This document shows positions 622-40,324 of a DNA stretch of 64,000 bases, one piece after another. Source of the DNA: a virus. The notes under the pieces were generated by a model. It saw only the letters and a list, made by a program, of their open reading frames with translations. It made no database searches and was not told the DNA's origin. Where the stretch lies: the IMG/VR virus record IMGVR_UViG_3300012984_000012, positions 1 through 64,000 of that record, one strand, 5' to 3'. The position numbers and the translations under genes were made by a program. How positions within the stretch are numbered: the first letter of the stretch is position 1; each line of letters starts with the position of its first letter.

Positions 622-3600
622 TCAACCGTTCTCAGAGATGTTGTTAGCAACGACGAAGTCAAGCGCGACGTACTCAATAGACTTGGTCGGTTGCACGAAG
701 ATCTTACCGCGGATGGTGTTGTTCTCCACGTCGGCCTGTGTCGTGGTCGAGCTGTCGATGATGACCCTGAACCTCTCGAGACCGGCAAGCGCCTGGATCC
801 TCTGCAAGCGCGGGGTGACCGCAGCAGAGAACTTGGCGAGGGTGGTGTCGCGATTCGGCTCAAAGATGATGGTCTGCGCGATGTCACGGACCTGGCGACG
901 GATGTCGATCAACAAGCGCCTGACATTGACACGATCCAAGGCGCTGGCGGCTGCTTGAAGCGTCTTCTGACCCCAGACCACCACTCCACCCTTCGGGTTG
1001 GTACCTGCCGAGGCGTTGCCCGGGAAGGCAACCAACGGGTTGATGCTGACGTCATACAACGTGTCCATGTTGTTCTTTGACAACTGGACGCGAGCCTCGA
1101 GGGTCGTCTGCAACGCGCCTCGAGCGAAGCCTGCTGGAGCGAACCATGGGTGACCCAGCTTGTCATTCAAGGCAAGGGCACCGAGGACGGCCACGGAAGG
1201 AGGAGCGAAGACGTTGGTGCCGGTGTTCGGGTCTGGCATCAACACGTCAGGGAAGTAAGCCGCTGCAAAGCTGCTGTCAAGAGCCCTGTTTCGGAAGTTG
1301 TCGACCGTCAGCTGCACGGACGGCAGTTGGTTGTCGCTGATCACGTTATCATCGTTGCTGTCGTGTTGCTCAATGTCCATGATGAACAAGGCATCGAACC
1401 GTTCCTCGACAGAGTTGATCGCGTAGTTCGTGACCGCAGGTTCCCTGACGCCAGGCAAGGCCAACAGCATGACGTCAACGTTGGTTGAGTTTTTCATGAT
1501 GTCGAGCGCCTTGGTGTAAGCGGTGACAGAAGGCCCATCGTTGCGGCCGCGGTTGCTGTCGCCCATGTCGGCGACGACGGCGTTGTTGTTGATCTCAGAC
1601 TCGTCCTTGTCGAACAGGTTCACGCCGTCGAAGCCACCTTGCATGAAGAAGGAGTACTTGAGGAAACGCCTGTTGGCCTGGATGAAGTCGTCTGCCTTGA
1701 CGCGACGGGTCGCCGTCGAGTCGTCGATGTTGATGTTTCCATCACGGACGTAGATCGCGTTGGCCCACTTGGATGGGTCAGCGAGGCCGGTCGAACCGGT
1801 GACGACCTTCACGTTCTCAAGCGTGAAGCCGTTGCGGCAGAACTTATCAGAATCGAGCTCGCCGTTCTGCGACGTCGCTGGCACGCCTGCGTTATCACCG
1901 ACCACGACGTTCTGTTGTGTCTCAGAGAAATCTGGGAAGTACTTGGCGAAGGCCGCGAGCGACTTGTCCTGCAAGGTGCTGGCGTTTGGTGTGGTCAGGC
2001 TGGTGACGTGCTCAAAACGAGCGCCCCAGTAGAGCAACGGATTGACGGACAGCTTTTGGCCCGAGCCTTGCGTGATGTTCTTACGAAGAGGCACAGGTGC
2101 CTCGATGACGCGCTTGAGAGCTTCGGTCGTGGTGAGCTGCGTCGAAGACGGGCTCGTCAGCGGCGCTGAACCCGAGGTGATCAGGTGTTGTGGACCACGG
2201 AATCCGAACGGAAGCGCTGTCGCGTCGACGGTCTGGTTGTCAACGTCATCAGAGACCTCAACCCGAATGAGGTTCGAGTTGTTCGGATAGTTTCCTTCCA
2301 CGACCAGCTTCTGGCTGGCTTCTGCCTGGTCGAAGTTGTAGAAGATGTGTGCATCACCGATGACCTGAGCGATGTAACGATCTGAGCTCGGGTCGAGGTT
2401 CATGCCCCTCCATTGCTCGAGTGGCTTCAGGTTTCCGTCATTATCGTTCCAGTCGCGAACGACCAGGTCGAAGCTACCGTACCTGTTGTTCGGATCAGTC
2501 GATGGGACGATGTTCTCGATCGATAGCTTGAAGTTTGTTGAGATCCCGGTGCCAGCGTCGAGGGCGTGCAGCTTGAACAGGTTCGTAGCAACACCACCGA
2601 ACTTCTGTGAGATCACCCAAGGAGAGTGAGCATGAGCAAAACGATCGGTAAAAGACTCGTAGTTCGGGATCACGTCGCTGCCTGCATTGTAAGCAGCAGA
2701 TCCCGTTGTCAAGAACGCAGCGACCTCAGAACCAGGTTTTGGTGCTGTCGAAGCGCCGGCACCTGACAACGCAGACACGATGCCCGATCCGGTGACGACA
2801 GCCGTGGCCGGATGAACGTCCCACGAGGCGTACAGGAGGTGACCTGCCTGTTGGTACTTCAGCGGGTCCCTGTTGAGGACGTTAGCAAAGTAGTTGGGTG
2901 ACGTCATGTCGAACGATGCCGTGATGACGTTCGGATACAAGGGATCGATCCCCTGGTGACCGTTGAGCAAGAGCACGAAGTCCTGCTTGGCCACGCCCGC
3001 ATCCAGCAGGTTGACAGCACCGTAGATGCGACCTTGAGAGCTTTGTTCCGTGGCAACCAGGTTCGAAGCTGGGTTCAATGACGCGGTGATCGAAGACGAC
3101 AAACGAAGGATGACTCCGGACGGAGCCAACATGACGCCACGAACGATCGGAACTGCGGTGTTAACCCCGGGAGTGATGCTGCCCTGTCCTTGGAGACCCG
3201 CGTCGGAGAAGACGGTCGAACCAGCGGACTCTGACATGAAAGCGCCAAGGAAGAACGTGCGACCGGTGACGCTGTTGCTACCCGAGTTAGCGTATGGGTT
3301 ACCGACCAACAGGCCATCGTTGACTCGCGGTTGGTTCTCACCGACCGTGAAGCCAGCCGCAGTGACGCTGCCGTCCTGATTACGCTTCTTGCCGTCGCCG
3401 ATACCAAGAACCCTAAGGAACGTGACAGCACCAGCGTTTCGCAACCACTCGGTTACTGCCAGAGGCCCGAACTTCTTGCCGTCAGTCAGACCGAACTTAG
3501 CGTAGAAATCGCTAAGGGATCCGACCGTTACTGGGACGAATGCGGGGCCTTGAAGGGCCGTGCCGACGATGCCCGCCGGGATGCCGACGGGTTGTTGAGC

Positions 3601-3666
3601 GACCGGTCCGGAGATGTCGATCTCCTTTGCTGTAACGCCCGCGCTGCCGAATTTGAGTTGTGCCAT
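622..3666 (-). CDS. Tail sheath protein (T4 gp18-like), copy 1
   Basis: 1014 residues. It is a contractile tail sheath subunit: copies polymerise around the tail tube and contract to drive it into the host. The N-terminus has the sheath pattern PVGIPAGIVGTALQGPAFVP. The C-terminal third has the conserved sheath core HPWFAPAGFARG, then LYDVSINPLVAFPG, VVWGQKTLQ, LDRVNVRRLLIDIRR and a final PTKSIEYVALDFVV strand. It is longer than T4 gp18 (about 660 residues), implying inserted outer domains. The ATG is preceded by AGAGGA. Copy 2 lies directly upstream and is clearly paralogous along the whole length. A GATACTTA element 14 nt upstream suggests it is separately transcribed late. Confidence 0.93.
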   Translation of the reverse strand: MAQLKFGSAGVTAKEIDISGPVAQQPVGIPAGIVGTALQGPAFVPVTVGSLSDFYAKFGLTDGKKFGPLAVTEWLRNAGAVTFLRVLGIGDGKKRNQDGSVTAAGFTVGENQPRVNDGLLVGNPYANSGSNSVTGRTFFLGAFMSESAGSTVFSDAGLQGQGSITPGVNTAVPIVRGVMLAPSGVILRLSSSITASLNPASNLVATEQSSQGRIYGAVNLLDAGVAKQDFVLLLNGHQGIDPLYPNVITASFDMTSPNYFANVLNRDPLKYQQAGHLLYASWDVHPATAVVTGSGIVSALSGAGASTAPKPGSEVAAFLTTGSAAYNAGSDVIPNYESFTDRFAHAHSPWVISQKFGGVATNLFKLHALDAGTGISTNFKLSIENIVPSTDPNNRYGSFDLVVRDWNDNDGNLKPLEQWRGMNLDPSSDRYIAQVIGDAHIFYNFDQAEASQKLVVEGNYPNNSNLIRVEVSDDVDNQTVDATALPFGFRGPQHLITSGSAPLTSPSSTQLTTTEALKRVIEAPVPLRKNITQGSGQKLSVNPLLYWGARFEHVTSLTTPNASTLQDKSLAAFAKYFPDFSETQQNVVVGDNAGVPATSQNGELDSDKFCRNGFTLENVKVVTGSTGLADPSKWANAIYVRDGNINIDDSTATRRVKADDFIQANRRFLKYSFFMQGGFDGVNLFDKDESEINNNAVVADMGDSNRGRNDGPSVTAYTKALDIMKNSTNVDVMLLALPGVREPAVTNYAINSVEERFDALFIMDIEQHDSNDDNVISDNQLPSVQLTVDNFRNRALDSSFAAAYFPDVLMPDPNTGTNVFAPPSVAVLGALALNDKLGHPWFAPAGFARGALQTTLEARVQLSKNNMDTLYDVSINPLVAFPGNASAGTNPKGGVVVWGQKTLQAAASALDRVNVRRLLIDIRRQVRDIAQTIIFEPNRDTTLAKFSAAVTPRLQRIQALAGLERFRVIIDSSTTTQADVENNTIRGKIFVQPTKSIEYVALDFVVANNISENG

Positions 3667-13896: not shown

Positions 13897-14679
13897 TTAA
13901 TTTCCCATCAAGTAACCAGACACTGTGATGTCAACGTCGGCGCCGGACGTGATGCAACCTCCGGAGACTGGGGTGTTGACGGTCGTGATGAACAGAGGCA
14001 CGCCTCCTCCGTGCATTGCGAACCCACCGCCTGCCGCGGCAGCATAACCCTGGATCTTGGTCGTCAATCCGTCCTTGATCACGACCTTTGTTGAGACGGT
14101 AGCATGGGCGTTTGTCACGAGCACGCTCATGACAGCGAAACGATTGCTCGCGCCAGGTGAAACGAGGATCGTACCCGAGGCCGTCGTGTAGTTTTGGGTG
14201 CCTTGACGTTGAAGGTCAGGGACCGATCCTAACAAGATGACCTGCTTGCCAAGCGAGTCAGCGATGCCTCCGACGATGAGACTGTTCGCTGTCACTGCTT
14301 TGTCTGACGTCCTAGCTTCGAACCCCTCGAACAAGGGATTCGCTGTTATCGTTGAACCTGTCAGGTTAAAACCTTGGACAGCACCGTTACCACCTGAGAC
14401 GACGTTAACGGGCAAGGCAGCCGACCAGGTGACAGGCAAGGATCCCGTAGACGTAACGGTAACGGGACTGGTGATGCTGACCGATCCAGTTATTCCTGCC
14501 GATCCGGTGATCCGCAACGCTGAGGTTGAGTCGATCTGTGGGTATCTTACGATGCCATCAGAGCCGACACCAGCAAACAGTAACCCGGTCATTCCAACAG
14601 GAATTTTCAAGCTTGATGTGACAGCCATCAAGCTACCGCTAACGTCAACTAACACTACGGCGGGATTATCAACACTCAT
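13897..14679 (-). CDS. Fibre-associated structural protein
   Basis: 260 residues, coupled to the giant fibre gene by an ATGA overlap at 14676-14679. The first 110 residues hold repetitive Ser/Thr/Val/Gly strands (ITGSAGITGSVSITSPVTVT) like the fibre repeats. The C-terminal half (ASGTILVSPGASNRFAVMSV and following, with GGGFAMHGGGVPLFIT) looks like a compact beta-sandwich found in phage tail or head fibre proteins. It is probably a fibre tip, chaperone or secondary adhesin. No enzymatic motif is seen. Confidence 0.65.
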   Translation of the reverse strand: MSVDNPAVVLVDVSGSLMAVTSSLKIPVGMTGLLFAGVGSDGIVRYPQIDSTSALRITGSAGITGSVSITSPVTVTSTGSLPVTWSAALPVNVVSGGNGAVQGFNLTGSTITANPLFEGFEARTSDKAVTANSLIVGGIADSLGKQVILLGSVPDLQRQGTQNYTTASGTILVSPGASNRFAVMSVLVTNAHATVSTKVVIKDGLTTKIQGYAAAAGGGFAMHGGGVPLFITTVNTPVSGGCITSGADVDITVSGYLMGN

Positions 14680-17600: not shown

Positions 17601-20600
17601 GGCGATGTACGTCTCGCCCGTTGTCAATCTTTGAAGAGATCCGCTGACAAACGGAGCGTTAACGACGCCTGTGAACGTGGTTCCCGAGACGGTCGCCACG
17701 ACGCTGTCATTGATGCTGATTGCGTTGTTCGTCTTCGTGAGCCCAGTGCCAGCAACAGTCGTGTCATTCGATGATGAAACAAAGATCTGACCGTTGGACT
17801 GAGAGGTGATCGACACGCCACCTACGCCAACAAGATAGCTCAATCCGGATATGGTCTGTTGAAGCGAACCAGTCAGACCCCCAGAGAGAACCAGCGGCCC
17901 CGTCATCGACGAACCAGATCTCATCACGACAACATTAGGATCGATCGAGACCTGGAAGCTAGAAACGATGACGCCGGTGCCGGCTGAAGGAGGCACAGGT
18001 GACGAACCAGAGATTTGAACCTGACCGTTCGAGCCCGTCGTTACGGTCACGCCACCTACGCCCGCGATGTACGTCTCCCCCGTCGACAAGCGTTGCAACG
18101 ATCCCGAGACGCCACCAAGCAACGTCAATGGTCCCGTCACAGACGAGCCTGAACGCATCACCACTACGTTGGGATCAACAGAAACCTGGAAACCCGAGAC
18201 AGTGATGCCTGAACCCGCAGTCGGTGGAACTGATGAACCTGAGATGACGATCTGCCCGTTCGATTGCGAGACGATAGAAACGTTGCCCGCACCCACCAGG
18301 TAAGAAAGTCCCGTGTCAGTTTGTTGGATCGATGCGCTCAGTCGCTGGAAGCTCGAACCAGATCGCATCGCAACCAAGTTAGGATCAACGCTGATCTGCT
18401 GTCCAGAAACGATGACGCCCGTTCCCGCAGTCACCCCTTGAGGGACTGAGCTGCTGATCAGGATCTGACCGTTAGACTGTGAGGTGATCGATATGCCACC
18501 AACACCAACGAGGTATGACGATCCATCAATCGTCTTCTGAAGCGAACCAGTCAACCCGCCGCTTAGGACGAGGGGCCCGCTCATCGAAGAGCCAGACCGA
18601 GCCACGATCAGATTAAAATCGGCACTGAACGTTTGGCCGCCCAGGTTGATGCCTTGCCCAGGCAAGTACGCCGTGGGAGCAGAGCTGCTGATCACCACCT
18701 GGCCGTTAGATTGGGTCGTGATCGACGTTCCACCGACGCCAGCAAACGCCGTTTCACCCGTCGCAAGACGTTGCAACGAACCAGACAGACCACCTGCTGC
18801 TGTCACGGGTCCTGTGAACCTAGAACCTGACAGGGTCGCTACGACGTTGTCGTTAATCGAGATCGTGAAAGTTGAATTCGGGCCACCGTCAGTCAGTATG
18901 ATGCCGCTCGAACCTGCCAACGAACGCTCGTTATTCAACGAACCAGTCAATGATACGACCAAGTAAGTCGCATCAGGATCTCCAGAGCCTCCTCCGCTGC
19001 CTCCTGCGCCGAGCGCGGTCAGCGTTAGTCCGGTCGGGTTGTTGACATCGTAAAAACGTAAGTGACTACCTGAACGCTCGATACGAGTCGCTGCATCAGT
19101 AAACTGCACGTTGTTCGAGGTGATGGTGACGCTACCAGAACCGACCTTGACAGAGCCGCTAAAAACAGCGTCTCCACCAAAGACGCTAACCTTTCTCGTC
19201 GTCCCACCGACGGTGCCCGAAACATAAAAGAACGTATCAGTTCCGATGGTGTCAACGTAATTGTTGTCAGACGAGATCGACACGCTTGAGGTCGTCTTTA
19301 GCTTGTTTCCACCATCGATCCAAACGCTTGACGCTCCACCCGTTGCGGTGCTTGCGATCACGACCTGTCCGTTCGATTGCGAGACGATCGTGACGTTTTG
19401 ACCAGCGACCAGGTACGAAAGTCCTGCAGCAGTCTTTTGCAACGAGCCTGACAGCTGCGTGAACGTTGAGCCTGAAAGCGTGGCAACGACAGCAGGATCG
19501 ATCGAGACGGTCGATCCTGCAACCAATATGCCAGAACCAGCAACGGGACTTGAACCTCCAGCTGAACCGCTGATCAAGATCTGACCGTTCGACATTGTCG
19601 TCAAGGTTATCGAACCCTGAGCAAGCAAGTAAGGAAGGCCAGGAGCGACCTGCTGCAGTGAACCAGACAGGCCTGCTGACGCCGAGACTGGACCTGTAAA
19701 CGTCGAACCTGACAGGGTCGCCACGACGTTGTTATTGACACTGAGACTGACCGTGTTACCAGCTCCGCCATCGACCAGCGAAAGACCCGTTCCTACGACC
19801 AATGACCTTTCGTTAGGCAAAGATCCAGTGTTTCCGATCGTGACGTACGAGGCAGAAACGTCTGCCGCGCTAGTGAACGACGAAGCGATCACCACCTGTC
19901 CGTTAGACTGAGACGTGACTGTCACGTTCTGTCCAGCGACCAGGTAAGATAGACCTGCGGAGGTTCGCTGTAGCGAACCAGAAAGTTGGACGAAGGTCGA
20001 ACCTGAGAGCGTCGCTACGATCGTTGGGTCGATCGAGACAGTTCGATCGTTGACGAGGACCCCTTGGCCCGCCACGGGAGGCAATGACGACCCGCTAACG
20101 ACAACCTGACCGTTTGATGACGTAGTCACCGATACGACACCGGCACCAGCGATGAACGTTTCGCCTGTAGCTAGGCGCTGAAGTGATCCCGAGAGTTTGA
20201 CAAACGTTGCGTTAGATAGCTGAGCTACGACCGATGGATCGATATTGATCGTTGAACCAGTTACGTTGATTCCCAAGCCCGCTACGGGTACCTGAGGCGC
20301 AGAGCTCGACACGAGAATCTGACCGTTGGACTGTGAGATTATCGTGGTTCCACCCACGCCGACGAGGTATGACAGGCCCCCGCTTGTCTTTTGCAGAGAA
20401 CCCGACAGGCCACCTTGGGTTATAACGGGACCAGAGAACGTCGATCCAGAAAGGGTAGCGACAACAGAGTCGTTGACAGAGACGACACCAAGGCCAGAAA
20501 CGTTGACACCGTTACCAGATTGAGGCGTGACACCAGCAGACGCAGAGACGATGACCTGACCAGTCGATGACGTCACAACAGTGACCGCACCAGCAGCGGC

Positions 20601-22373
20601 GAGATACGTTTGCCCGCTAGCAAGACGTTGCAACGAACCAGACAACTTCGTGAACGTTGCGTCTGACAGTTGGGCAACAACGCTCGGATCGATGTTAACG
20701 ATGTTGCCGCCCGTGATCAAGATGCCAGTGCCACCGACGGGTGGCGCTCCTCCACCTCCGCCGCCCGATCCAGAAATGATGATCTGTCCGTTCGATTGGG
20801 AGGTAATGAAAACGCTACCCACGCCCACCAGGTACGACACCCCTGGAGCGACTTGTTGGATCGAACCGGTCAGGCCAGCTTGTGCATTGACAGGACCTGA
20901 GAACGTTGAGCCTGATAGCGTCGCGACAACAGCATTGTCAATCGCTAACGTAGCACCTGTCTTGGTCAATCCCAAGCCCGCCGCCGTCGTGTCTCCAGAA
21001 CCAGAGATGAAGATCTGACCGTTAGACTGCGAGGTTACGCTCACGGCTCCCACGCCGACCAGGTAGCTCAATCCCGCTAGGGTTTTCTGCAATGAGCCAG
21101 TCAGGCCACCTGAGGCGACTAGCTGGCCTGTGAACGTTGAACCTGACAAGGTAGCGACAACGTTGTCATTGATAGAGACCTGTGAGCCCACGACAATGAT
21201 GCCCGTGCCTTGCGAGGGCGCTGCACCGCCACCACCCGTGGAACCTGAGATGATGACCTGACCGTTAGACTGGGTCGTGATGGTGATCCCACCCTGTGAG
21301 AGAAGGTAAGGCAATCCAGCGCTGGTTCGCTGCAGCGAACCAGACAGTCCACTCCCGGCGACGACCGGCCCCGTGAAGGTAGATCCAGACAGCGTCGCAA
21401 CCAGGTTGTCGTTAATTGAGACTTGCGAGCCAGAGACGACGATTCCCACTCCAGCTGTTACTTGCGACTGTGACGTTGACGATCCGCTGATCAGGATCTG
21501 GCCGTTGGACTGGGAGACGATAGAGATACCGCCCACTCCGACCAGGTACGACAGGCCTGAAGTCGTCTTTTGCAGAGAACCTGACAGTCCTCCGGAGGCA
21601 ATGATTGCACCCGTAAAAGTCGAGCCCGAGATCGTGGCTACGACGCTGTCATTGACAGAGAGCGTCAACGTACCGTTCGGTCCGGTGTCAACCGCGCGGA
21701 GGCCCGAGGCTCCCGAGACATTGAGCACTCGCTCGCCTGACAGCGAGGCCGTGGTTGACAAAACCAGGTACGAAGGGGCGGGATCGCCTCCCGAAACGTT
21801 GGTCGTCGTTCCAGCGCTAGACCCACTGATGATCACTTGACCGTTGGACATGGTGGTGATGGTGATCGAGCCTTGCGCTAGCAAGTAAGGCACGCCTGCA
21901 GAAACCTGTTGCAGCGAGCCAGACAGCTGGGCAAAGGTCGAGCCGGACAAGGTAGCGACGATGGCGTTGTCGAGCGCTAGGGCAAACGTTGCCCCAGGGC
22001 CATTGTCGATGGTTCTCAAGCCCGCAGAGCCCGAGATCGAAAACACTCGTTCGTTAGCAAGCGACGACGTTGCCGACAGGACAAGATACGTCGCAGCAAA
22101 GTCGCCACCACCGACGATCGACCCAGAGAACGTGGACGTTGGGTTTACTTGGACCCACGTCACGGGCGAGATGCTCTTCAAAAACCACACAGAGTCATCA
22201 TCGGTCTGCAACGCAAACCGATTCAGGTCATCGCTCGTCAGCTCAGCAGACGTGGTTGGCTTTCCCTCAGAGGGAGTGAAGCTCAACCGATCAGGTTCAG
22301 AAGGAAACTTCCACGCGAAAGGCGCATGGATGCCATCGTTAGGAAACTGTTTCCTGTGTAGTTGGTCGCTCAT
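14676..22373 (-). CDS. Giant repetitive tail fibre/spike protein with beta-helix segment
   Basis: 2565 residues, the largest protein here. Residues 1-80 (MSDQLHRKQFPNDGIHAPFA and following) are a unique head likely to anchor it to the tail. From about residue 85 to 1620 come some 17 repeats built on the pattern VVATLSGSTF...SGSLQ(R/K/Q)...GLSYLVGVGG...SQSNGQ(I/V)(I/V)ISGS. Residues about 1625-2020 form a different domain starting VDIVSGSDLNNGTSPSTP, the classic entry of a right-handed pectate-lyase-like beta-helix used in tailspikes. Four more repeats follow. The last 110 residues (HLAENGPYELIGSG to TRTVI) are a unique beta-rich tip. It is probably the long receptor-binding fibre. Catalysis by the helix domain is unproven. 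Confidence 0.85.
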   Translation of the reverse strand: MSDQLHRKQFPNDGIHAPFAWKFPSEPDRLSFTPSEGKPTTSAELTSDDLNRFALQTDDDSVWFLKSISPVTWVQVNPTSTFSGSIVGGGDFAATYLVLSATSSLANERVFSISGSAGLRTIDNGPGATFALALDNAIVATLSGSTFAQLSGSLQQVSAGVPYLLAQGSITITTMSNGQVIISGSSAGTTTNVSGGDPAPSYLVLSTTASLSGERVLNVSGASGLRAVDTGPNGTLTLSVNDSVVATISGSTFTGAIIASGGLSGSLQKTTSGLSYLVGVGGISIVSQSNGQILISGSSTSQSQVTAGVGIVVSGSQVSINDNLVATLSGSTFTGPVVAGSGLSGSLQRTSAGLPYLLSQGGITITTQSNGQVIISGSTGGGGAAPSQGTGIIVVGSQVSINDNVVATLSGSTFTGQLVASGGLTGSLQKTLAGLSYLVGVGAVSVTSQSNGQIFISGSGDTTAAGLGLTKTGATLAIDNAVVATLSGSTFSGPVNAQAGLTGSIQQVAPGVSYLVGVGSVFITSQSNGQIIISGSGGGGGGAPPVGGTGILITGGNIVNIDPSVVAQLSDATFTKLSGSLQRLASGQTYLAAAGAVTVVTSSTGQVIVSASAGVTPQSGNGVNVSGLGVVSVNDSVVATLSGSTFSGPVITQGGLSGSLQKTSGGLSYLVGVGGTTIISQSNGQILVSSSAPQVPVAGLGINVTGSTINIDPSVVAQLSNATFVKLSGSLQRLATGETFIAGAGVVSVTTSSNGQVVVSGSSLPPVAGQGVLVNDRTVSIDPTIVATLSGSTFVQLSGSLQRTSAGLSYLVAGQNVTVTSQSNGQVVIASSFTSAADVSASYVTIGNTGSLPNERSLVVGTGLSLVDGGAGNTVSLSVNNNVVATLSGSTFTGPVSASAGLSGSLQQVAPGLPYLLAQGSITLTTMSNGQILISGSAGGSSPVAGSGILVAGSTVSIDPAVVATLSGSTFTQLSGSLQKTAAGLSYLVAGQNVTIVSQSNGQVVIASTATGGASSVWIDGGNKLKTTSSVSISSDNNYVDTIGTDTFFYVSGTVGGTTRKVSVFGGDAVFSGSVKVGSGSVTITSNNVQFTDAATRIERSGSHLRFYDVNNPTGLTLTALGAGGSGGGSGDPDATYLVVSLTGSLNNERSLAGSSGIILTDGGPNSTFTISINDNVVATLSGSRFTGPVTAAGGLSGSLQRLATGETAFAGVGGTSITTQSNGQVVISSSAPTAYLPGQGINLGGQTFSADFNLIVARSGSSMSGPLVLSGGLTGSLQKTIDGSSYLVGVGGISITSQSNGQILISSSVPQGVTAGTGVIVSGQQISVDPNLVAMRSGSSFQRLSASIQQTDTGLSYLVGAGNVSIVSQSNGQIVISGSSVPPTAGSGITVSGFQVSVDPNVVVMRSGSSVTGPLTLLGGVSGSLQRLSTGETYIAGVGGVTVTTGSNGQVQISGSSPVPPSAGTGVIVSSFQVSIDPNVVVMRSGSSMTGPLVLSGGLTGSLQQTISGLSYLVGVGGVSITSQSNGQIFVSSSNDTTVAGTGLTKTNNAISINDSVVATVSGTTFTGVVNAPFVSGSLQRLTTGETYIAGFGTTSVVTGSNGQVQISSYGIQAGPSGSVNPAHLVDRWYVDIVSGSDLNNGTSPSTPLRTAERLSQILCPEGTLYFPRQTTVLYFAPGTYDTLSLNATFQPPNTLTILGTVSSSNPMTLSEVTASNSSTPTRGMIASTTSSFVASRRIRVISGAASGSVTYSTGLGADSQHTWVKPFYRESDASLTFPSIGDQVVVEQTLTKISKIGVNSNLVGLGPSAIGLASFVVKDVSTNDHTGGSVLPQGLGITFSQCELTGTSSTSLSAITFNNCRTIAGTGSKTLIGQFFLFNGCSFQAGLSFTGNSVARFGPACAIDAAFISMNHPSITTQTGQASVKLLNDFEMCNGSGQTGFYVGHGCQLVANAKVWGSGSSNTFATGINFTGGGNAVVAAAANLTFPVTTPVVAAGQNVTGSFSSIIPFRFPLANCGIALTSDPTAKRYINASDITNDSATVSGSTVSNALDNLKAALSDVSASYVTIGNTGSLPNERSLSVGSGLTLTDGGAGSTVTIGVNNSIVATLSGSTFAQLSGSLQQIAPGLPYLLSQGSITITTQSNGQVIISGSGGSGGSNPVAGAGILVAGSTISIDPAVVATLSGSTFVQLSGSLQRTTTGLSYLVAGQNVTIASQSNGQVVIASSFTSAADVSASYVTIGNTGSLPNERSLAVSADLSLADGGSGASVTIGLSPINSFKLTQVPDVSASYITIGNTGSLPNERSLAVSAGLTLTDGGAGGTVSLGINDNVLATLTGSTFSGPVIAGGGLSGSLQRTSAGLPYLLSQGGITLITQSNGQIIISGASGGSGGSNPVAGTGIVVAGSTISIDQSVVATLSGSTFTQLSGSLQRTSAGLSYLVGAGALTVTSQSNGQVILSSSLFDANSHASLRQLIHLAENGPYELIGSGSTLDIGPQPFPTASIWRTAGGSKIVEKLWTRNPNKTPATITWKVYAPDGSTVLSQAQDTITYQGVFEISRTRTVI
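14990..16200 (-). repeat. C-terminal block of fibre coding repeats (about 4 units)
   Basis: Four degenerate units of roughly 60-110 codons encode the SGSLQ...SQSNGQ module, separated from the main block by the beta-helix coding region. Related units such as GLSYLVAGQN and GLPYLLSQG occur in both blocks, suggesting duplication and exchange between them. Confidence 0.75.
17530..22130 (-). repeat. Main block of fibre coding repeats (about 17 units)
   Basis: Tandem degenerate units encode the GSLQ/SNGQ module. At least three flavours alternate: GLSYLVGVGG, GETYIAGVGG and GLPYLLAQGS. They are conserved enough at DNA level to permit recombination, and a likely source of assembly collapse in short-read data. 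Confidence 0.8.
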
Positions 22374-25030: not shown

Positions 25031-25318
25031 TCATCCTACCCAAACCTTGCGAACAAGACCCTCGATCACCTCGACGTTAAGCCTAGCGTCATCCCTTTCC
25101 TTCGCAGGAGGTGACAGCTGCCCGTCGTACTTGTGAATCCTGAGCTTGAGGCTCGCGTTCTTAGCCTTCATGTAGGCCATCGCAAGCATCATTCCAAACA
25201 TCGTGCTAGCTAGCTTGTGTGCGAGGCTAGCAGGCTCGCTCTTCTTGCCGTAATAGGAACGGCGATTCGTCTGTTTCACGTAACTCAACTTTGTTGGCAG
25301 CACGTGATTGCGCTGCAT
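25031..25318 (-). CDS. Hypothetical protein immediately downstream of tmRNA
   Basis: Up to 95 residues from ATG 25318, which lies only 3 bases beyond the mature tmRNA 3' end. The frame stays open further back, but that part is the tmRNA itself and cannot be coding. A GTG within the VKQTNRRSYYG stretch is an alternative start. The protein has a possible hydrophobic helix (TMFGMMLAMAYM) and a basic, charged C-terminal half ending IEGLVRKVWVG. Function unknown. If transcribed with the tmRNA, RNase processing at the tmRNA 3' end would free this message. Confidence 0.45.
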   Translation of the reverse strand: MQRNHVLPTKLSYVKQTNRRSYYGKKSEPASLAHKLASTMFGMMLAMAYMKAKNASLKLRIHKYDGQLSPPAKERDDARLNVEVIEGLVRKVWVG

Positions 25319-25321
25319 GCG

Positions 25322-25688
25322 TGTAGGCGCCGGGAATCGCACCCGGGTCCGCAACACTTCCTCTCGAAATCTCTTCACAGGCTTGGTCCATCTGCTTGGT
25401 CGACCTCAGGACGGGTCTAGTGACGCGAGCTTTAACGATCAGGTCACCTGATCGGCACTACGTTTCACGCCCAGCGCTTTGGCGTCTTCCGTTTAACGTC
25501 CGGTCGCCCGACGGTTCCCTAGCGTTCTGTTCCTAGGTGCTAGGAGCCCCGTTCCTCAGGCCACGAGGGCGAGAGGAGCCGTGCCGTTGTCGTTGGCATC
25601 TATACGTCACATGGGTTTTGAACTGGACCCTCGTGCACCAGTGCCTGCAACCTCAAGTCTCTGTACCACGTCGAAACTGGTCGCCCAC
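25322..25688 (-). ncRNA. ssrA: tmRNA (transfer-messenger RNA)
   Basis: 367 nt. The tRNA-like ends pair: 5' GTGGGCG with 3' CGCCTAC (7 bp, one G-U), followed by discriminator A. The 5' domain has the conserved TTTCGACG and later GAGGTTGCAGGC. The 3' domain has a T-arm CCGGG-TGCGATT-CCCGG. A first pseudoknot is visible (ACTGG with CCAGT, plus GGGT with ACCC), followed by the tag frame. Further hairpins lie downstream of the tag, such as GATCAGG-TGA-CCTGATC. CCA is not encoded and would be added by the host. With SmpB, tmRNA frees stalled ribosomes and tags the nascent chain for proteolysis. No smpB gene is in the window. Confidence 0.93.
25556..25597 (-). other. tmRNA tag reading frame
   Basis: The internal frame reads ANDNGTAPLALVA followed by TGA. 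The ANDN start is typical of proteobacterial tags, and the end LVA resembles the usual LAA degron recognised by ClpXP. The resume codon is inferred to be GCC at 25597-25595. Confidence 0.85.
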
Positions 25689-28484: not shown

Positions 28485-30380
28485 TCAGATGATGTTCATG
28501 TCAAGAACTGTGACAGTTCCGTAAAAATCGCTGCGAACCATCTTCTTGCCGTAGCGGGTCATGACACCCTTACGTGGCGTGAAGTCTTCCGGAGCGAAGA
28601 TCGTCGGAGTGACGATCAACGGAACGTACGGGGCGTACACGTAGCCCGTCTCGAGGTAGCTGCCACCCTTGTAGCCAACGAGGATCTTGTTCCTTGCGAA
28701 GTAAGGATCCTTGTAGACTGTGAAGCGGTTCGACACGGTGCCGATCGCCTCTGCGCCGATGGTGAATGGAGAGCCGACCTGGCCTTCGCCATCGATCGAG
28801 TACTTCGGCTTGTAGAGCACGGAGCTTTCGAGGATGGTGCAAACGTCAGGGCTCGTCACCATGAAGTTCGCGGAGCCGCGGAGGGTCTTGCGGTGGATGG
28901 TGTTCGCCACGTCGATGACAGTCTCGACGAGGGTCTCGTACCACTCACGGACGGTGCCGGTGAACTGCGGGCCGATGCTCAAGGAGCTCGCCAGCTGCTG
29001 GGCGACGCCCGTCAGCTTGTTAACGAACTTGCCAGGTGCACGGCTCCAGTACATGACTGAACCGTTCGCTTGGGAGACGAGGTCACCCAAGATCTCGCGA
29101 TCGATCTCGAGAGCGATCTGCTCTGAGAGGATGCTCGTCAGCTCGACTTCAGCGTCCATCGAATGATAGGCGTTGAGGTCTTGTGCCAACTCAGGAGACC
29201 AACGAGCACGCAGCTTGCGGGTCGTGGCCGTGATGGCGAGTGACTCGATCTTGATGTCGATCTCTGGGATCGGAGGGGTTGGGTTCGTCCCAAAGTCCGA
29301 CTCGAAAGACGGGATCGTCAAGGTGGAACCAACGCCGCCGGCAGTGCCGTCAGTGGTGGTAACCGCATCAGCGATCGCCATCGAGAGGCGAGTCGTTGCG
29401 CCCAAAACCGGAGCCGTGCTAGCAGGAGTGATCCTGAAGACGACCTGGATGTGGGTGCCATTGAGAGGGGCGGGAGTGAAGGTCGAGCCGTTCCAGTTAC
29501 CGCGCTTGTTGAGGCGACGGAGGTTCAGGACGCCGCGGCCAGACTGGTAGGTCTCACCCCATTGTACTGCACCGTTCGTGGTGGCAACACCAAAGACAGA
29601 GAGCTGTTCGACGGCAAGGAAGTCGCCCTTCGGGATCAGCGCCGCGATCGTGGCCACGCTCAGGTGAGCGAAGGTCACGTCAAGGACGTTAAGACCGAGA
29701 TCGGCATCGATTTGCGGGTCGAATTGCAACATGCGACCGTTGGTGCCTGACATCTGACCAGAGTCAGAGATCACGAGGCCAGCAGACCACGTGTCACCAT
29801 TGATACCACCCCAAGCGCCGACTTCAGCGGTCGAGCCAGAGTATGCCATGGTGCCAGAGTGGACCTTGGTGAAACCAACGTTGACCAGGTCATACATGCC
29901 GCCAGTGGCCAAAGAGCCTGACTGGATGCCGCGACCGGCTGGGTTGTTGTAGATGGACTGACCACGGGTGTAGGTCTCAGCAGTGCCGTTGTCCAATTGG
30001 GTCGTGCCGACGGCAGAACCGTAGGTATAATCCAAGTAGAAGATCAGGCCTGACGGTAGCGACATCGGTTGGATCGAGACGAGCTCGTTCGCAACCAAAC
30101 CACCGAACACCCTGCGGACGATCGGGAAGGCGATGTTCGAGAAGCCCTGCACCTGACCAGAGGAAGCGACTGCGCCGCCGCCAGTGGACAGAGAGTTCGA
30201 CTCCTTGAGTACCTGGGCAGCTTGGTTCTCCAAGAGCTGCGACATGACCTCACGCTTGACGCCATCGAGGCCGCGGAGCAAGCCGGTGCGGCTCCACTTC
30301 TCAACGAGGCGTGCTCGTTCAGCTCCGACGTGGCGGTCCTTGATGCCGGCCGCGAGCTGCTCCATTGTAAAGAACTTCAT
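28485..30380 (-). CDS. Major capsid protein (T4 gp23-like)
   Basis: 631 residues. The N-terminal delta-domain (MKFFTMEQLAAGIKDRHVGA to LLENQAAQVLKESNS) is typical of T4-type capsid proteins that are trimmed on maturation. A [LI]-x-E/[AGS] site, VLKE/SNS, predicts cleavage after Glu60 by the phage's gp21-like protease. The gp23 core is seen in FSNIAFPIVRRVFGGLVANE, then VSIQPMSLPSGLIFYLDYTY, RARWSPELAQDLNAYHSMDA and the nearby ILSEQIALEIDREIL. The ATG has a strong AGGAGA site. It is somewhat longer than T4 gp23 (521 residues), suggesting extra surface domains. Confidence 0.93.
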   Translation of the reverse strand: MKFFTMEQLAAGIKDRHVGAERARLVEKWSRTGLLRGLDGVKREVMSQLLENQAAQVLKESNSLSTGGGAVASSGQVQGFSNIAFPIVRRVFGGLVANELVSIQPMSLPSGLIFYLDYTYGSAVGTTQLDNGTAETYTRGQSIYNNPAGRGIQSGSLATGGMYDLVNVGFTKVHSGTMAYSGSTAEVGAWGGINGDTWSAGLVISDSGQMSGTNGRMLQFDPQIDADLGLNVLDVTFAHLSVATIAALIPKGDFLAVEQLSVFGVATTNGAVQWGETYQSGRGVLNLRRLNKRGNWNGSTFTPAPLNGTHIQVVFRITPASTAPVLGATTRLSMAIADAVTTTDGTAGGVGSTLTIPSFESDFGTNPTPPIPEIDIKIESLAITATTRKLRARWSPELAQDLNAYHSMDAEVELTSILSEQIALEIDREILGDLVSQANGSVMYWSRAPGKFVNKLTGVAQQLASSLSIGPQFTGTVREWYETLVETVIDVANTIHRKTLRGSANFMVTSPDVCTILESSVLYKPKYSIDGEGQVGSPFTIGAEAIGTVSNRFTVYKDPYFARNKILVGYKGGSYLETGYVYAPYVPLIVTPTIFAPEDFTPRKGVMTRYGKKMVRSDFYGTVTVLDMNII

Positions 30381-34709: not shown

Positions 34710-35315
34710 TCACTTCTTTCCTAACAGCTCGTTCAAGATCCGATCGATCCTGTCAGACTTAGAAAAAACCTTTCGCAACTCGCTCTCATCGATTTGCCTG
34801 CCTTCAGGAAGCATGAAGGCCCCGGGCGTGGAAGGTTCGCTAACGAAATCCCAACAGATCAGTTGGAAATCATCTTGGACGATGTAGTAATCGCCTTGCT
34901 TGCGTGTCGATCCGACGCCACGAGAGCTGATGCCCAGCTTGACGCCGTGTTCGATCAGACCTTTGAGAATTGCGCCAGAAGGCGTCTTGTCAAGGATCTC
35001 AACCGTCCCAAAGACCGTGCCGTTCTCGATGTACGCTTCTCGGATCACGTGTGAGGCGTTCTTCAGGTTGACCACAGAAGAGTCAGGGTGATCGAGTTCA
35101 CCCATGGCACGGTTCTCGATGATGAACTTTTGGTAGTTCCTGACCTCGCGATCCAAGACAGCATGCGGATAGATGCGTCCGTTCTGGTTTAGAGTGTCTG
35201 CCTTCTGCAGGATGCCCTTCATCAGGATCTTGCCAGTCTTTTCGACTGACTCCTTGATCATCTCGGGCGTGTACTCGAAGATCTCGTAAGAGTTCAGTAA
35301 CCTCATGTCAGTCAT
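34710..35315 (-). CDS. Prohead core protease (T4 gp21-like)
   Basis: 201 residues. gp21-type serine proteases mature the prohead by cutting after [LI]-x-E. Recognisable blocks are NQNGRIYPHAVLDREVR, the catalytic His in GELDHPDSS (His76), and the Ser in GISSRGVGS (Ser130 or 131). A downstream acidic block, WDFVSEPSTPGAF (Asp156), follows. The length matches T4 gp21 (212 residues). It lies between portal and scaffold genes, exactly as in T4. Its specificity predicts cleavage of the capsid protein after Glu60 and possibly of the motif-bearing small proteins. Confidence 0.9.
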   Translation of the reverse strand: MTDMRLLNSYEIFEYTPEMIKESVEKTGKILMKGILQKADTLNQNGRIYPHAVLDREVRNYQKFIIENRAMGELDHPDSSVVNLKNASHVIREAYIENGTVFGTVEILDKTPSGAILKGLIEHGVKLGISSRGVGSTRKQGDYYIVQDDFQLICWDFVSEPSTPGAFMLPEGRQIDESELRKVFSKSDRIDRILNELLGKK

Positions 35316-36177
35316 TGTCAGTCTCCTTCGAACCGAGCTCTGCGGATAGCTTGGTGTACAGCATGAACCTCGTCACCGTATCGTCATTGACGATCTCTAG
35401 CGTCTCAGTTTGAAGTTGGTCTCGCGCCTCGACAAGCTTCTTGTTGAGGTACTCGTTTTGAGGGTTAGCCTCGTTGTATGAAGCGATCGATGATAGCAGG
35501 GTGTCCCTGATCTCTGTCAGCTTGAGTTTGATCGATCCCGGATCATCATTGGCTGTCGAAAAAGCATATGCCCTGAACAGAGCCTTCTGCTCGTCATTCA
35601 GGATGCCAGAATATTTCTCGTTGAGCTTTTTCATCATCACCTTCATCAGAAGGCGGCTCTCGCCCGGAGACTCCTCGATCACCAGGCGCTCTGGTTCAAC
35701 TAAATTTTCAGTGGTCAAGCGTGCCATGAGTTGATCCTCGTACGAAGCCATACGCTCGAGGTCTGCATCACGTGAACGCCAATCATTCAAAAGCGTCTGA
35801 ACCGTCGCTAGGAAGCGATACTCTGAGACCTGCTGATCGTAGAAATTCTCATCATTGATCAAGTGGTTGATATCACGAATGAGCATCGACTTTTGCCTGT
35901 CGAGCTCCTTGACGTTGTGAGCTCGCGCGGCTGCTTTCGCCTCGTGTAAGATGTTGGCAGCGACAGCTTGAGAGCTAACCGTCGTCTTTCTCAACGCGTG
36001 GACGAGCCTGAATTCCTTGTATAGCTCAGTTCCTGGCTTGAAGTGACGGCGGAGGATGCGAAGGGCCTGTGATGAGTTCTTTTCGTTACCCTCGACGAGC
36101 GAACGTGAAATGGTGGTTACCAGGAACTCGTACAGCAACGCGGTATTGCGCTTTTTGTTGTGTGTCTTGCTACTCAT
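35308..36177 (-). CDS. Probable prohead core/structural protein downstream of portal
   Basis: 289 residues from ATG 36177, whose leader GAGGATGACG lies within the end of the portal gene. The sequence is strongly helical and charged (NKKRNTALLYEFLVTTISRS, DRQKSMLIRDINHLINDENF, SIKLKLTEIRDTLLSSIASY). It occupies the place of T4 gp67/gp68 between portal and protease but is much longer and not visibly similar, so only a core or head-assembly role is suggested. Its 3' end overlaps the protease start by 8 nt. Confidence 0.6.
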   Translation of the reverse strand: MSSKTHNKKRNTALLYEFLVTTISRSLVEGNEKNSSQALRILRRHFKPGTELYKEFRLVHALRKTTVSSQAVAANILHEAKAAARAHNVKELDRQKSMLIRDINHLINDENFYDQQVSEYRFLATVQTLLNDWRSRDADLERMASYEDQLMARLTTENLVEPERLVIEESPGESRLLMKVMMKKLNEKYSGILNDEQKALFRAYAFSTANDDPGSIKLKLTEIRDTLLSSIASYNEANPQNEYLNKKLVEARDQLQTETLEIVNDDTVTRFMLYTKLSAELGSKETDND

Positions 36178-38284
36178 CGTCATCCTCGGTATCGTCGAAG
36201 TCAAGTTCGTCATCCGTATCGTCAATGATAAATACTTCGTTCGTGCTCGTGTTATGAGATCCACGATCAACGTTCTCGCCTAACAGCGAGATGCCTTCAT
36301 CGATCTCGTCTTGAACATCGACCTCTTCTGACTCAGCGATGACACCACCGTCAGCCGCCCTGTTCATCTTCAACGCAGACGTCATGCGACGTAACGTAGA
36401 CCACAGATCGGGAGCGAGGCCACCGAAAGGTGACCTTGAGACGACCTTCGCCTCTCCAAACGGATTTGACACGACGGACTTCATCCACTCAGACCCAGTG
36501 GGATCTTTCATGGCATCGTTATCGATGCCAGTCATCTTGACAAAGTCAGGCATGTGAGTTTTTGCGGGACCGTGATTTTGGATCCTAGAACGATTGTATT
36601 CGTAGTTTTTCTGTGATTGGTTCTTGGGCTTGATTGGCCTGTCGTTATCACCATCGTTCAGTGACATCTTCAGTGCAAAGTCCTCACCGTCTTCCTGATC
36701 ATCGTCTGATGTCAGTAATTCAACGCCGGGCCTGATCTCTTCTTCAGCTTCCTCACCAGCGTTTTCTTCAGGAGGCGTCTCTTCTTCGCCGCCCGCCTCG
36801 GGCTCCTCGCTACCGCCTCCGAAAAGATCATCAGCGCCGCCGCTCTCCCCGCCAGAATCACCGCCCTCACCGCCTGCCTCGATAGCAGCATCAGTCTTTT
36901 TCTCTCTCATGCGTTGGGCATCGATCTCATCGATCTCTTCTTCACTCAATCCCCAAATCTCATGCATGACAAAGAACTTGCTTCCCATGCCTTCCGGTAA
37001 CGAACCACCGATCTCAAACTTAGCACGCCACAGCTCTAGCTTCTGCTGTTGGGCTACAGTCGATGGGTTCGACAGGCGCAAGGTGAAGTTTTGTAGGTCC
37101 TCACCGTCATACCCATGAGCGTACAGGTGAATGATAGCCAGCTTGTTGAGCTCAGCGAGCATCGTCTTTTGGATGACGTTGATCGTACGTGAGAACCTGA
37201 TGTCCTCTTGTGCTAGCGTCGCCTTGCTGCTAAGCATCTCATCGTAACCGAGATACGCTCGTGGGATCTTCAAAGCAGCAAACAGCTTCTTTTGGATGTA
37301 AGCGACGTCCTCAACAGCAGCTGTGTTCTGGCCACCTGCTAACGTGTCGATGCGAGTACCGGTATCGTTACCACGGACTGGGATGAAATAATCCTCGTCA
37401 ACGCTCAATGGGTTGTAACGAAGGTCGACCCGACCCGTCTGGTTATCGATCACCTGGCTCGTCCTGAGGTTCTTGCGTTGTTCTTCAACGTACATCGGTA
37501 CGTTCTCAGGTGGCACGTTAGCAACGTCAATGTAAAACACGCGTCGCTCAGGAGCTCTGACCACGCGATACACTAGCATGGCGTCTTCAATCAGGATCAG
37601 CTGGCGCCAGATGCGGCGAGCGGGCTCAATGACAGAAGAGCCGTACGGCAAGAACATGTCATTGCCTAACAGGCGAAAGTGTGTGACCTCCCAGTTTTCT
37701 AGGGTCCTGTTGCCGAGCGTCACCCAGCGGTAACGGACAGCAAAAGGATCATCACGGTCGTAATTCTCCTCACGCTCGATCTCATTGACAGGGATCGGAA
37801 ACGCGTTGACGACGCCATACTCTGGCGACACGTCATTATAGAGAAAGAAGTCTCCGTACTTGACAAGGTTACGAGCCCACGAACGAAGGTTGAACTCAAC
37901 GTTCAAGACGTTGTAGAACAGGTCCTCAAGCACCTGTTTGACCTTCTCGTTGTCAGAGTAGACGTGAAGGACACGACCCTTATCGTCTTGAGCACACGTC
38001 TCATCAGCATAGATGTCAAGAGCGGCAGCGATCTCAGGAGTGTATTCCATCTCCTGGAAATCCTGGTAACGCATCAATCGCTCGCTCAAGTTGTAAGCGT
38101 TAGACGTGATGGTCGCATATGTCGGAGAGAGCGACTTCTGAAACAGCAGCGTGCCAGACGACTTCGTCTTGTCAGCCATCGCTAGTGTGGTGTCTAGCGC
38201 GCGGATCTTCCGCTTGACTACAGGACCGCTACGAAACAGTCGCGTCAGTCGTCGGAAAAGACTCTTGCTTTCTTTTTTTGCCAT
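36170..38284 (-). CDS. Portal protein (T4 gp20-like)
   Basis: 704 residues. The portal ring is the DNA entry channel and the terminase docking site. Family blocks in order: QKSLSPTYATITSNAYNLSE, FQEMEYTPEIAAALDIYADE, FNLRSWARNLVKYGDFFLYN, EVTHFRLLGNDMFLPYGSSV, then IEPARRIWRQLILIEDAMLV and ALKIPRAYLGYDE. Residues from about 465 to 540 are an acidic, Gly-rich segment (EAGGEGGDSGGESGGADD) and the C-terminus is acidic as well, extending the protein beyond T4 gp20 (524 residues). The next gene begins inside its last codons. Confidence 0.92.
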   Translation of the reverse strand: MAKKESKSLFRRLTRLFRSGPVVKRKIRALDTTLAMADKTKSSGTLLFQKSLSPTYATITSNAYNLSERLMRYQDFQEMEYTPEIAAALDIYADETCAQDDKGRVLHVYSDNEKVKQVLEDLFYNVLNVEFNLRSWARNLVKYGDFFLYNDVSPEYGVVNAFPIPVNEIEREENYDRDDPFAVRYRWVTLGNRTLENWEVTHFRLLGNDMFLPYGSSVIEPARRIWRQLILIEDAMLVYRVVRAPERRVFYIDVANVPPENVPMYVEEQRKNLRTSQVIDNQTGRVDLRYNPLSVDEDYFIPVRGNDTGTRIDTLAGGQNTAAVEDVAYIQKKLFAALKIPRAYLGYDEMLSSKATLAQEDIRFSRTINVIQKTMLAELNKLAIIHLYAHGYDGEDLQNFTLRLSNPSTVAQQQKLELWRAKFEIGGSLPEGMGSKFFVMHEIWGLSEEEIDEIDAQRMREKKTDAAIEAGGEGGDSGGESGGADDLFGGGSEEPEAGGEEETPPEENAGEEAEEEIRPGVELLTSDDDQEDGEDFALKMSLNDGDNDRPIKPKNQSQKNYEYNRSRIQNHGPAKTHMPDFVKMTGIDNDAMKDPTGSEWMKSVVSNPFGEAKVVSRSPFGGLAPDLWSTLRRMTSALKMNRAADGGVIAESEEVDVQDEIDEGISLLGENVDRGSHNTSTNEVFIIDDTDDELDFDDTEDDDE

Positions 38285-38701: not shown

Positions 38702-40324
38702 TCAGCGGAACAGCCACGAAAAATCAGAATGATCCCTGCTTCTCACCGATGATGTCGATGGATTTTGAGGCCTGTGAACCAGATGAGGATTGAAGCCTCT
38801 GATCGCTGGGTTGACGAGCGGTTGTGCTGACTGGATGTTGCCCGGCAAGGTGCTCTGGTCGCGGCTCTGTTTGCCTGTCGCAGCTAGCATGGCATATGCC
38901 ATCGCAACCTGTTGTTGGTTGATCGTTGATCCACCTTCAATCAACCAACAACCGATCGCTAGGCTCATGATCAGGTCGTCATAGCTGTCTTTCGAGGCCA
39001 TGGGTTTATTGCCATTCCAGACGAACGCTTGAAGTTGATCGTACAAGCGTTGCGAGTAGGTCTTCAGTTGACCGTTTCTGATCAGCTCTTCGAGCTTTGA
39101 GAGGATCTGAACGCGTGTCTTTTGGACGGTCGGAAAACCGGGCAGCTCGTTAGGGTCGTTTGGTACGTAACTGAACGGATCACCCTTGTTGTTGTGATAG
39201 TACAATCGCTTGTAACCCATGTCACGTAGTTTCGTGTTGACGAAGTAACCAAACGTGTTGTTCTCAGGGATCAAAAGAGCATCGCTGTACTTCTTTCCCC
39301 ACTCTGCCATCAGGTCAGCGAGCTTTTCAGGAGGTATCTTACCCATGTACTCAGCTGCGACCTCACACTCTTCTGTGTCGATCACGTGGAAGGCAGAGAA
39401 ATCTCGAGCGTCACCACGAGCAATGTCAGCAGAGATCACGTATTGTCGACCAGGAACGGGATACGACCAGATCCAGATGTCCCTCTTCTCACCCGCCTTC
39501 TCGATGGGAGGCATGATGTTGACACGTAACAGCTCTAGCTCTGTCGGTTGAAGGAACGTATCGCCTGAGGCGATGAAGTCACACAAGTACTCTTGAGCGA
39601 CCTTTTTCTTGGGAAGGTTGCGGGTCTCCTTGTCAAACCAGGCCTGATCATGCTCAGGATGCTGGTACCACATGATCCGGATCGCATTGAACCCGTTCTG
39701 TCCTGCCTCTGCTTCTGTCCATAGGCTGTAATATTGACCGCCCACGCCGTTTGGCGTTGATAAGATCACAGCTCGACCACCCGTTGAGAGGGTCGGTGAC
39801 AGGCCAGCCCAGATGTCATCAAAGTCCCTAATGAACGCAGCCTCATCGACAATGAGAAGCGACAGTGCCTCAGAGCGACCAGCGTCATCTGACGTTGGGA
39901 CCGCCTTGATCTGAGAACCGTTGCTAAACGTGATCTGTTGCTTGCTAGGCTCGAACCTGGGAAGGAGAAGCCACTTGGGAAGGTTCTGCAAGATGACTGC
40001 GACCTTCTTAATGAAGTTCATGGCCGTGGGTAGCTTGGTCGCGATGACCAAGACGTTCTTGTCTTTCTGAAAGATAGCCATCCAGACCGCGTAAGCAGCA
40101 CAGACCGTCGACAAACCTAGCTGCCTAGACTTCAGGATGATGTTCAGGCGATGTTCTTGGAATGCCTTTACACACTCATCCTGAAAATCGTACGTATCAA
40201 ATGGGATAGTTCCCCGGGTCGGGTGTTGGATCTTCGTGTACGTCTTGATGAAATACGCAGGATCCTTGCCGCAACGAATGATCTCTTTGACCTGTTCGTC
40301 ACGTGTAAAGTTTGGTGCAGCCAT
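38702..40324 (-). CDS. Terminase large subunit (T4 gp17-like)
   Basis: 540 residues. It is the packaging motor ATPase and headful nuclease. The ATPase domain has IILKSRQLGLSTVCA (Walker A region), the adenine-side VLVIATKLPTAMNF, Walker B SLLIVDEAAF and the coupling motif VILSTPNGVGG. The nuclease domain has VISADIARGDARDFSAFHVI, LLIPENNTFGYF and DSYDDLIMSLAIG with the expected acidic residues. The Walker A segment reads GLST instead of the usual GKST/GKTT, so its lysine would have to come from Lys of KSRQ or elsewhere. The start overlaps the upstream stop (TAATG). Confidence 0.93.
   Translation of the reverse strand: MAAPNFTRDEQVKEIIRCGKDPAYFIKTYTKIQHPTRGTIPFDTYDFQDECVKAFQEHRLNIILKSRQLGLSTVCAAYAVWMAIFQKDKNVLVIATKLPTAMNFIKKVAVILQNLPKWLLLPRFEPSKQQITFSNGSQIKAVPTSDDAGRSEALSLLIVDEAAFIRDFDDIWAGLSPTLSTGGRAVILSTPNGVGGQYYSLWTEAEAGQNGFNAIRIMWYQHPEHDQAWFDKETRNLPKKKVAQEYLCDFIASGDTFLQPTELELLRVNIMPPIEKAGEKRDIWIWSYPVPGRQYVISADIARGDARDFSAFHVIDTEECEVAAEYMGKIPPEKLADLMAEWGKKYSDALLIPENNTFGYFVNTKLRDMGYKRLYYHNNKGDPFSYVPNDPNELPGFPTVQKTRVQILSKLEELIRNGQLKTYSQRLYDQLQAFVWNGNKPMASKDSYDDLIMSLAIGCWLIEGGSTINQQQVAMAYAMLAATGKQSRDQSTLPGNIQSAQPLVNPAIRGFNPHLVHRPQNPSTSSVRSRDHSDFSWLFR

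Follow-up and report, generated by a model that had tools for sequence, protein, structure and literature searches.

A one-piece tmRNA gene with an alphaproteobacterial-type elbow in a T4-like phage

Introduction

Phage tmRNAs have been found in 402 of 18,146 phage genomes, mostly as one-piece forms, and the two-piece forms are mostly from marine or aquatic phages (PMC9004378). Ten phages with tmRNA were known in 2014 (PMC4131195), and the 2025 tmRNA database holds 79 unique phage sequences (PMC11915505). Additionally, huge phages carry tmRNA together with SmpB (Al-Shayeb 2020, PMC7162821), and Bradyrhizobium elkanii phages carry tmRNA (PMC12656738). The bare claim of a phage tmRNA is therefore not new (PMC9004378), and these counts contradict an earlier note on the DNA studied here, which had limited such genes to a few phages such as mycobacteriophages.

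The tmRNAs of the Bxz1 group, Bacillus phage G, methylophage Melnitz, huge phages, and Bradyrhizobium elkanii phages resemble the gene described below in being complete ssrA genes, whose function is usually not known. However, they belong to other phage lineages, and covariation of the elbow is not reported for them in the open-access literature searched. The Melnitz tmRNA is two-piece and has a glutamine riboswitch, whereas the present family is one-piece, and some huge phages carry SmpB too, whereas none was found in the records of this family.

SmpB sits on the tmRNA elbow, where the D-loop/T-loop contact is needed for its binding (PMC3968760). Three lineages of permuted tmRNA have been described, and there is a precedent for reversal in a mitochondrial gene termed "re-permuted"; this gene, from Jakoba libera, is of alphaproteobacterial lineage and back in linear order, and lacks the tag frame (PMC11915505). 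The permuted tmRNAs of Alphaproteobacteria (RF01849/RF04321; Sinorhizobium, Paracoccus, Acetobacter, Methylobacterium, and the phages RcSimone-Hastad and RcRudolph) share with the present family ANDN tags and an A18/G55 elbow (GGCRGTA in many), and some also share the CCTAGNAACAGAA motif after the tag. Their genes give two RNA pieces, whereas the phage family is unpermuted.

The source phage and its tmRNA gene

The window analyzed here comprises bases 1-64,000 of a linear virus record of 129,880 bases (129.9 kb), which is a fragment. By gene content, the source is a T4-like phage, a distant myophage (Table 1). The closest cultured portals, those of Microcystis phage Mel-JY01, Flavobacterium phages immuto, and Rhodothermus RM378, are 38-45% identical, and no tmRNA was found within the first 38.8 kb of Mel-JY01, the best of them (45%). 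Portal relatives in IMG/VR were closer and many (178 confirmed, 80 kept), some of them 340-370 kb. Genes for Ile, Gly, and Ser tRNAs in the last kilobases of the record are similar to those that open the large tRNA array of a 369-kb relative (G001), which suggests that the record is probably a piece of a jumbo-phage genome. A 2565-residue ORF at 14676-22373 (-) of the window had no tblastn match among phage records.

ARAGORN called a one-piece tmRNA with the tag ANDNGTAPLALVA at 25321-25688 (-), the sole RNA gene called in the window. Rfam RF00023 matched 25319-25688 (-) with 66.8 bits (E 7.8e-24; gathering score 47) over model positions 1-374 of 374, its only match across the whole 129,880-base record. 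The window RNA is thus a real and complete one-piece phage tmRNA, as the earlier note had read at 25322-25688 from the letters alone, and the covariance model that it proposed as a check scores the region above the cut-off. Its 5' end agrees with ours, and its 3' end, the discriminator A, is one base off that of ARAGORN. The acceptor halves, TTTCGACG, the T-arm, and the ANDNGTAPLALVA frame with its stop were each found as it had described.

Table 1. Features of the window around the tmRNA gene and of the phage that carries it
Feature	Position	Strand	Remarks
tmRNA gene (ssrA), one-piece	25321..25688	(-)	5' end 25688, discriminator A 25322; ARAGORN and RF00023
Acceptor stem 5' half GTGGGCG	25682..25688	(-)	G3.U70 wobble = alanine identity; U2-A71 compensatory
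Acceptor stem 3' half CGCCTAC	25323..25329	(-)	pairs with GTGGGCG
D-loop segment ACCAG	25677..25681	(-)	A at tRNA-18 equivalent (25678), G19 (25677)
T-arm CCGGG-TGCGATT-CCCGG	25330..25346	(-)	G in place of U55; covaries with A18
Tag frame GCC AAC GAC AAC GGC ACG GCT CCT CTC GCC CTC GTG GCC TGA = ANDNGTAPLALVA	25556..25597	(-)	ARAGORN positions 92-133
Small ORF, ATG 2 bases past tmRNA end	25031..25318	(-)	in-frame ATG within ORF 25031-25378; homologues in L118, L137, L131, L166
Major capsid protein gp23	28485..30380	(-)	PF07068 E 4e-76; homologues 71-88% identical; upstream syntenic neighbour of tmRNA in relatives
T4-like portal gp20	36170..38284	(-)	PF07230 E 6.7e-73; query for related phages
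Terminase	38702..40324	(-)	
S77 prohead protease	34710..35315	(-)	
Tail sheath	622..3666	(-)	

The RNA is like standard one-piece bacterial tmRNA (RF00023) in its G3.U70 acceptor, TTTCGACG, T-arm, linear gene order (tag between the 5' and the 3' acceptor halves, by ARAGORN and Rfam), and tag frame of 13 codons and a TGA stop, with an Ala resume codon and a hydrophobic, Ala-ending C-terminus. It differs in the A18/G55 elbow, in the LVA end of the tag, and in the CCA, which is not encoded (the discriminator A is followed by CGC), and its RF00023 score is low, against 151-217 bits for the best 30 actinobacterial tmRNAs retrieved. The T-loop is TGCGATT, against canonical TTCRANN. In the acceptor, U2-A71 is a compensatory change, every relative having G2-C71. 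A permuted two-piece tmRNA (RF01849) is ruled out by the linear gene order, permuted controls being L146, L147, L150, and L203-L208, and a TLD-only decoy RNA of the phage DS6A type by the presence of the 13-codon frame and stop. The small ORF that begins just past the tmRNA is probably co-transcribed with it.

A family of related phage tmRNAs

A DNA pattern built on the tag and the pre-tag region matched 26 IMG/VR contigs, in each of which ARAGORN or Rfam called a one-piece tmRNA, and 24 different family sequences, including the window, formed the comparison set. Most of the wider portal clade lacks the gene, a tmRNA above the Rfam cut-off being present in 8 of the 50 portal-related records searched, although many of these are short fragments. 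In most records showing both, portal and tmRNA share a strand, with the tmRNA about 10-11 kb further on (17.5 kb in G020), and gp23 is directly upstream of the tmRNA, again on the same strand, in comparable loci with the capsid in view. The gene is thus conserved at one place in a clade of jumbo phages, which goes beyond what the earlier note had described.

The G3.U70 pair is invariant (24 of 24). Pairing in the acceptor reached 99.4%, compared with 83.6% when the 3' halves were shuffled (maximum of 2000 shuffles, 89.9%), and pairing in the T-stem 98.3%, compared with 69%. RNAalifold, run on 21 sequences, gave two-sided compensatory change in 37 of 59 pairs. The first four tag residues are ANDN in all 24 sequences, with synonymous codon changes only, and the last residue is Ala throughout, encoded by four codons; across the tag, codon changes numbered 65 at third positions, against 35 and 32 at the others. 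The middle and end of the tag vary between phages, nearly all of which end it in LAA or a close variant. Because full length, compensatory changes, the frame, and the genome position have all been kept, these comparisons show the tmRNA to be a phage gene under selection across a T4-like jumbo-phage clade.

Two traits that the earlier note had singled out look different in this setting. The CCA is indeed not encoded in the window, but it is also missing from about 18 of the 24 family sequences and is hardly a distinguishing trait. The LVA end, from GCG to GTG, is found in the window alone among the family, but a cellular tmRNA (L193) has the tag ANDNELALVA.

No cultured phage relative of the whole RNA was found by blastn of phage records: the window tmRNA gave short matches only, within the tag region, to two Rhodobacter phages, and that of a relative gave short matches only, at the 3' end, to several phage tmRNAs. 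When the 3' end of the tmRNA of relative L139 was compared with 72,556 plasmids, matches were confined to Alphaproteobacteria (16 of 16 records). In the same relative (tmRNA 11978-12349), the tag stop TGA is changed to TTA, and the frame would run on (..ALAALGTGVPATLEQN..).

Two covarying states of the elbow

Elbow positions were numbered by analogy with tRNA, counting from the conserved CGAC, and two states were found in the family: G18/U55 in 13 of 13 sequences and A18/G55 in 11 of 11, the window included, with no mixed case among the 24. The 13 sequences of the former state have a canonical TTCRANT T-loop and a D-loop GG at the equivalents of tRNA 18-19. Ten of the latter have a GGCAGTA or GGCAGCG T-loop and an A(A/T)ATAG D-loop, and the window combines TGCGATT with A18 and G55. 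When the tree is built with the elbow left out, the states interleave, with five changes, at least three of them forced by well-supported branches, several forks being unresolved; the end state of GGCAGTA with an AAATAG D-loop arises in separate branches.

In a sample of nine alphaproteobacterial ssrA genes drawn from plasmid and chromid records, all were permuted with ANDN or VNDN tags, and eight had GGCRGTA with A18 (D-loops assigned by eye); one, from Microvirga, was canonical. The permuted tmRNAs of the alphaproteobacterial phages RcSimone-Hastad, RcRudolph, and CcrSC also have A18/G55, and the two sites associate without exception in these 12 sequences. The other 30 cellular tmRNAs compared (28 actinobacterial, E. 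coli, and Legionella) have GG throughout, and each T-loop that could be resolved is TTCRANT. Among the tmRNAs compared, A18/G55 outside the family is thus confined to Alphaproteobacteria and their phages, with which the family shares this covarying elbow. Since the alphaproteobacterial genes are permuted, the family combines an alpha-type elbow with an unpermuted gene. The unusual TGCGATT loop does not exclude RF00023 membership, since it covaries with A18 and such a change occurs in alphaproteobacterial tmRNAs; a TTCRANN loop is the rule for tmRNA without defining it.

A search of the open-access literature found no unpermuted tmRNA with an alpha-type elbow and no elbow switching inside a phage family, and the covarying elbow on an unpermuted phage gene, as read from the alignments, appears to be new here. 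Intermediate T-loops with A18 (TGCGATT or TGCGATA) in the window, RcSimone-Hastad, and CcrSC suggest that the change may have been stepwise, with U55G and G18A first and positions 54 and 58 afterwards. About 330 nt separate the two sites, which stand at opposite ends of the linear gene, so a single short gene-conversion tract would not be expected to move both.

Proposed function and alternative explanations

The earlier note had also remarked that smpB was lacking nearby. No SmpB (PF01668) was found in the window, in its record, or in 21 related records, a search of 22 records in all with a profile that detected SmpB in 12 of 14 control genomes. Fragments could miss the gene, yet four large records (369, 340, 309, and 278 kb) are also without it. 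Therefore, the partner of the phage tmRNA is presumably the host SmpB.

The phage tmRNA probably functions in trans-translation together with host SmpB. We infer expression from the same strand as the head genes, with the 5' end cut by host RNase P, the 3' end trimmed, and the CCA supplied by the host CCA-adding enzyme. Charging with alanine would follow from G3.U70, the D-loop/T-loop elbow would bind host SmpB, and the charged RNA would enter stalled ribosomes and add ANDNGTAPLALVA, which would mark the product for host proteases. Ribosomes freed late in infection, as host RNA fails, could benefit the phage. The earlier note had inferred likewise that the phage tmRNA may sustain ribosome rescue, or else redirect tagging.

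Redirected tagging would be the main purpose if the RNA were a weapon that competes for host SmpB and attaches a weaker or different degron such as LVA, sparing phage products or removing chosen host proteins. Tags do differ among the phages in their middle and end, with LVA in the window alone; in addition, phage DS6A has a TLD-only RNA that inhibits host tmRNA (PMC4131195), and the authors of the Melnitz study propose selective degradation of host proteins (PMC9004378). We nevertheless consider this improbable, given that nearly all relatives keep Ala-Ala/LAA tag ends, as for an ordinary degron, and that the pseudoknot ring and frame, needless for a mere SmpB sink, are all retained. It is far less probable still that the gene is a captured bacterial ssrA carried as passive cargo, for example from an integration site, although ssrA is often an attachment site and ssrA fragments are found in phages (PMC9004378). 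Full length, compensatory changes, frame, and fixed position are kept across sequences differing as far as 54%, and the distinctive pre-tag motif gave one chance match, with no tmRNA there, in 84,980 bacterial and archaeal GTDB genomes.

A phage that brings the RNA without SmpB needs an elbow that fits the host protein, which is our proposed reason for the replacement of A18/G55 and G18/U55 by each other. That the switches track host SmpB in this way is a tentative reading, to which we give somewhat less than an even chance. Drift within the RNA followed by compensation, U55G and then G18A for folding only, with no input from host SmpB, would also produce the covariation and is a credible account, if short of probable. 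The intermediate T-loops in the window, RcSimone-Hastad (L006), and CcrSC (L148) are consistent with it, but the state that recurs in separate branches, GGCAGTA with AAATAG, is the alphaproteobacterial one, absent from the 30 other cellular tmRNAs.

On the host-matching reading, the full scenario would be an unpermuted phage lineage whose elbow switched repeatedly to match host SmpB, providing in alphaproteobacterial hosts a one-piece tmRNA where the cells use only two-piece forms, and representing a relic that predates permutation or else a re-joined copy; as a whole, we regard it as speculative and rather doubtful. By analogy with the mitochondrial gene, reversal of permutation is one of several possible origins. 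The family also bears on the origin of permuted tmRNA in Alphaproteobacteria, and its two elbow states are natural covariants set exactly at the known SmpB-binding site. Should the elbow track the host, it could be used to predict the hosts of uncultivated phages and to work out where tmRNA and SmpB recognize one another.

Hosts, tRNA genes, and other phages

ANDN tags together with the A18/G55 elbow point to Alphaproteobacteria as hosts for part of the family; ANDN tags by themselves are no proof of such a host. In core Alphaproteobacteria, tRNA-His has A73. The tRNA-His genes of three relatives with a canonical elbow (G001, G003, and G055) have C73, which suggests that these three may not infect core Alphaproteobacteria and weakens the idea of such a host for every family member. 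No tRNA-His was found among the A18/G55 records examined.

The same three relatives (369, 340, and 309 kb, respectively) carry near-complete tRNA sets of about 50-60 genes per record. Outside the main arrays, a tandem tRNA pair is present in the window's record at 95499-95647 (L003:14499-14647), and likewise in G001 at 336639-336792 (L169) and in G003 at 51217 and 51295. These tRNAs have 8-base anticodon loops, ATTTCAAC or ACTTCAAR, with UUCA central and perhaps a UGA or UGAA reading, and G055 has a CUA tandem pair at 228801 and 228875. UGA reassignment, raised by these odd pairs, was rejected: TGA is the main stop codon in these phages, closing 68% of the long ORFs of the window's record and 76-78% of those of the three relatives whose tRNA sets are most complete. 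Release-factor-like proteins are encoded near the tRNA genes of G001 (L276:1450-2040), G003 (L277:1453-2076), and G055 (L275:1453-2271), and match RF1 from about residue 157, with most of the N-terminal domain missing.

Additionally, several other phages were found to carry permuted tmRNAs. Those of the Rhodobacter phages RcSimone-Hastad (L006:2937-3350, MW677525.1) and RcRudolph (L007:2728-3142, OP009285.1) encode the tag ANDNVRMDAQALAA and are unannotated in GenBank, an annotated hypothetical protein overlapping part of the gene in RcRudolph. In the acidobacterial phage Tunturi_4 (L149:1438-1972, PP885687.1), a tmRNA called as permuted, whose tag has 33 residues, adjoins the gene for an RF-1-domain protein, and Caulobacter phage CcrSC (L148:1450-1882, MH588547.2) has an unannotated permuted tmRNA with the tag call VNAANDNDVVVSTMTSVKLAA.
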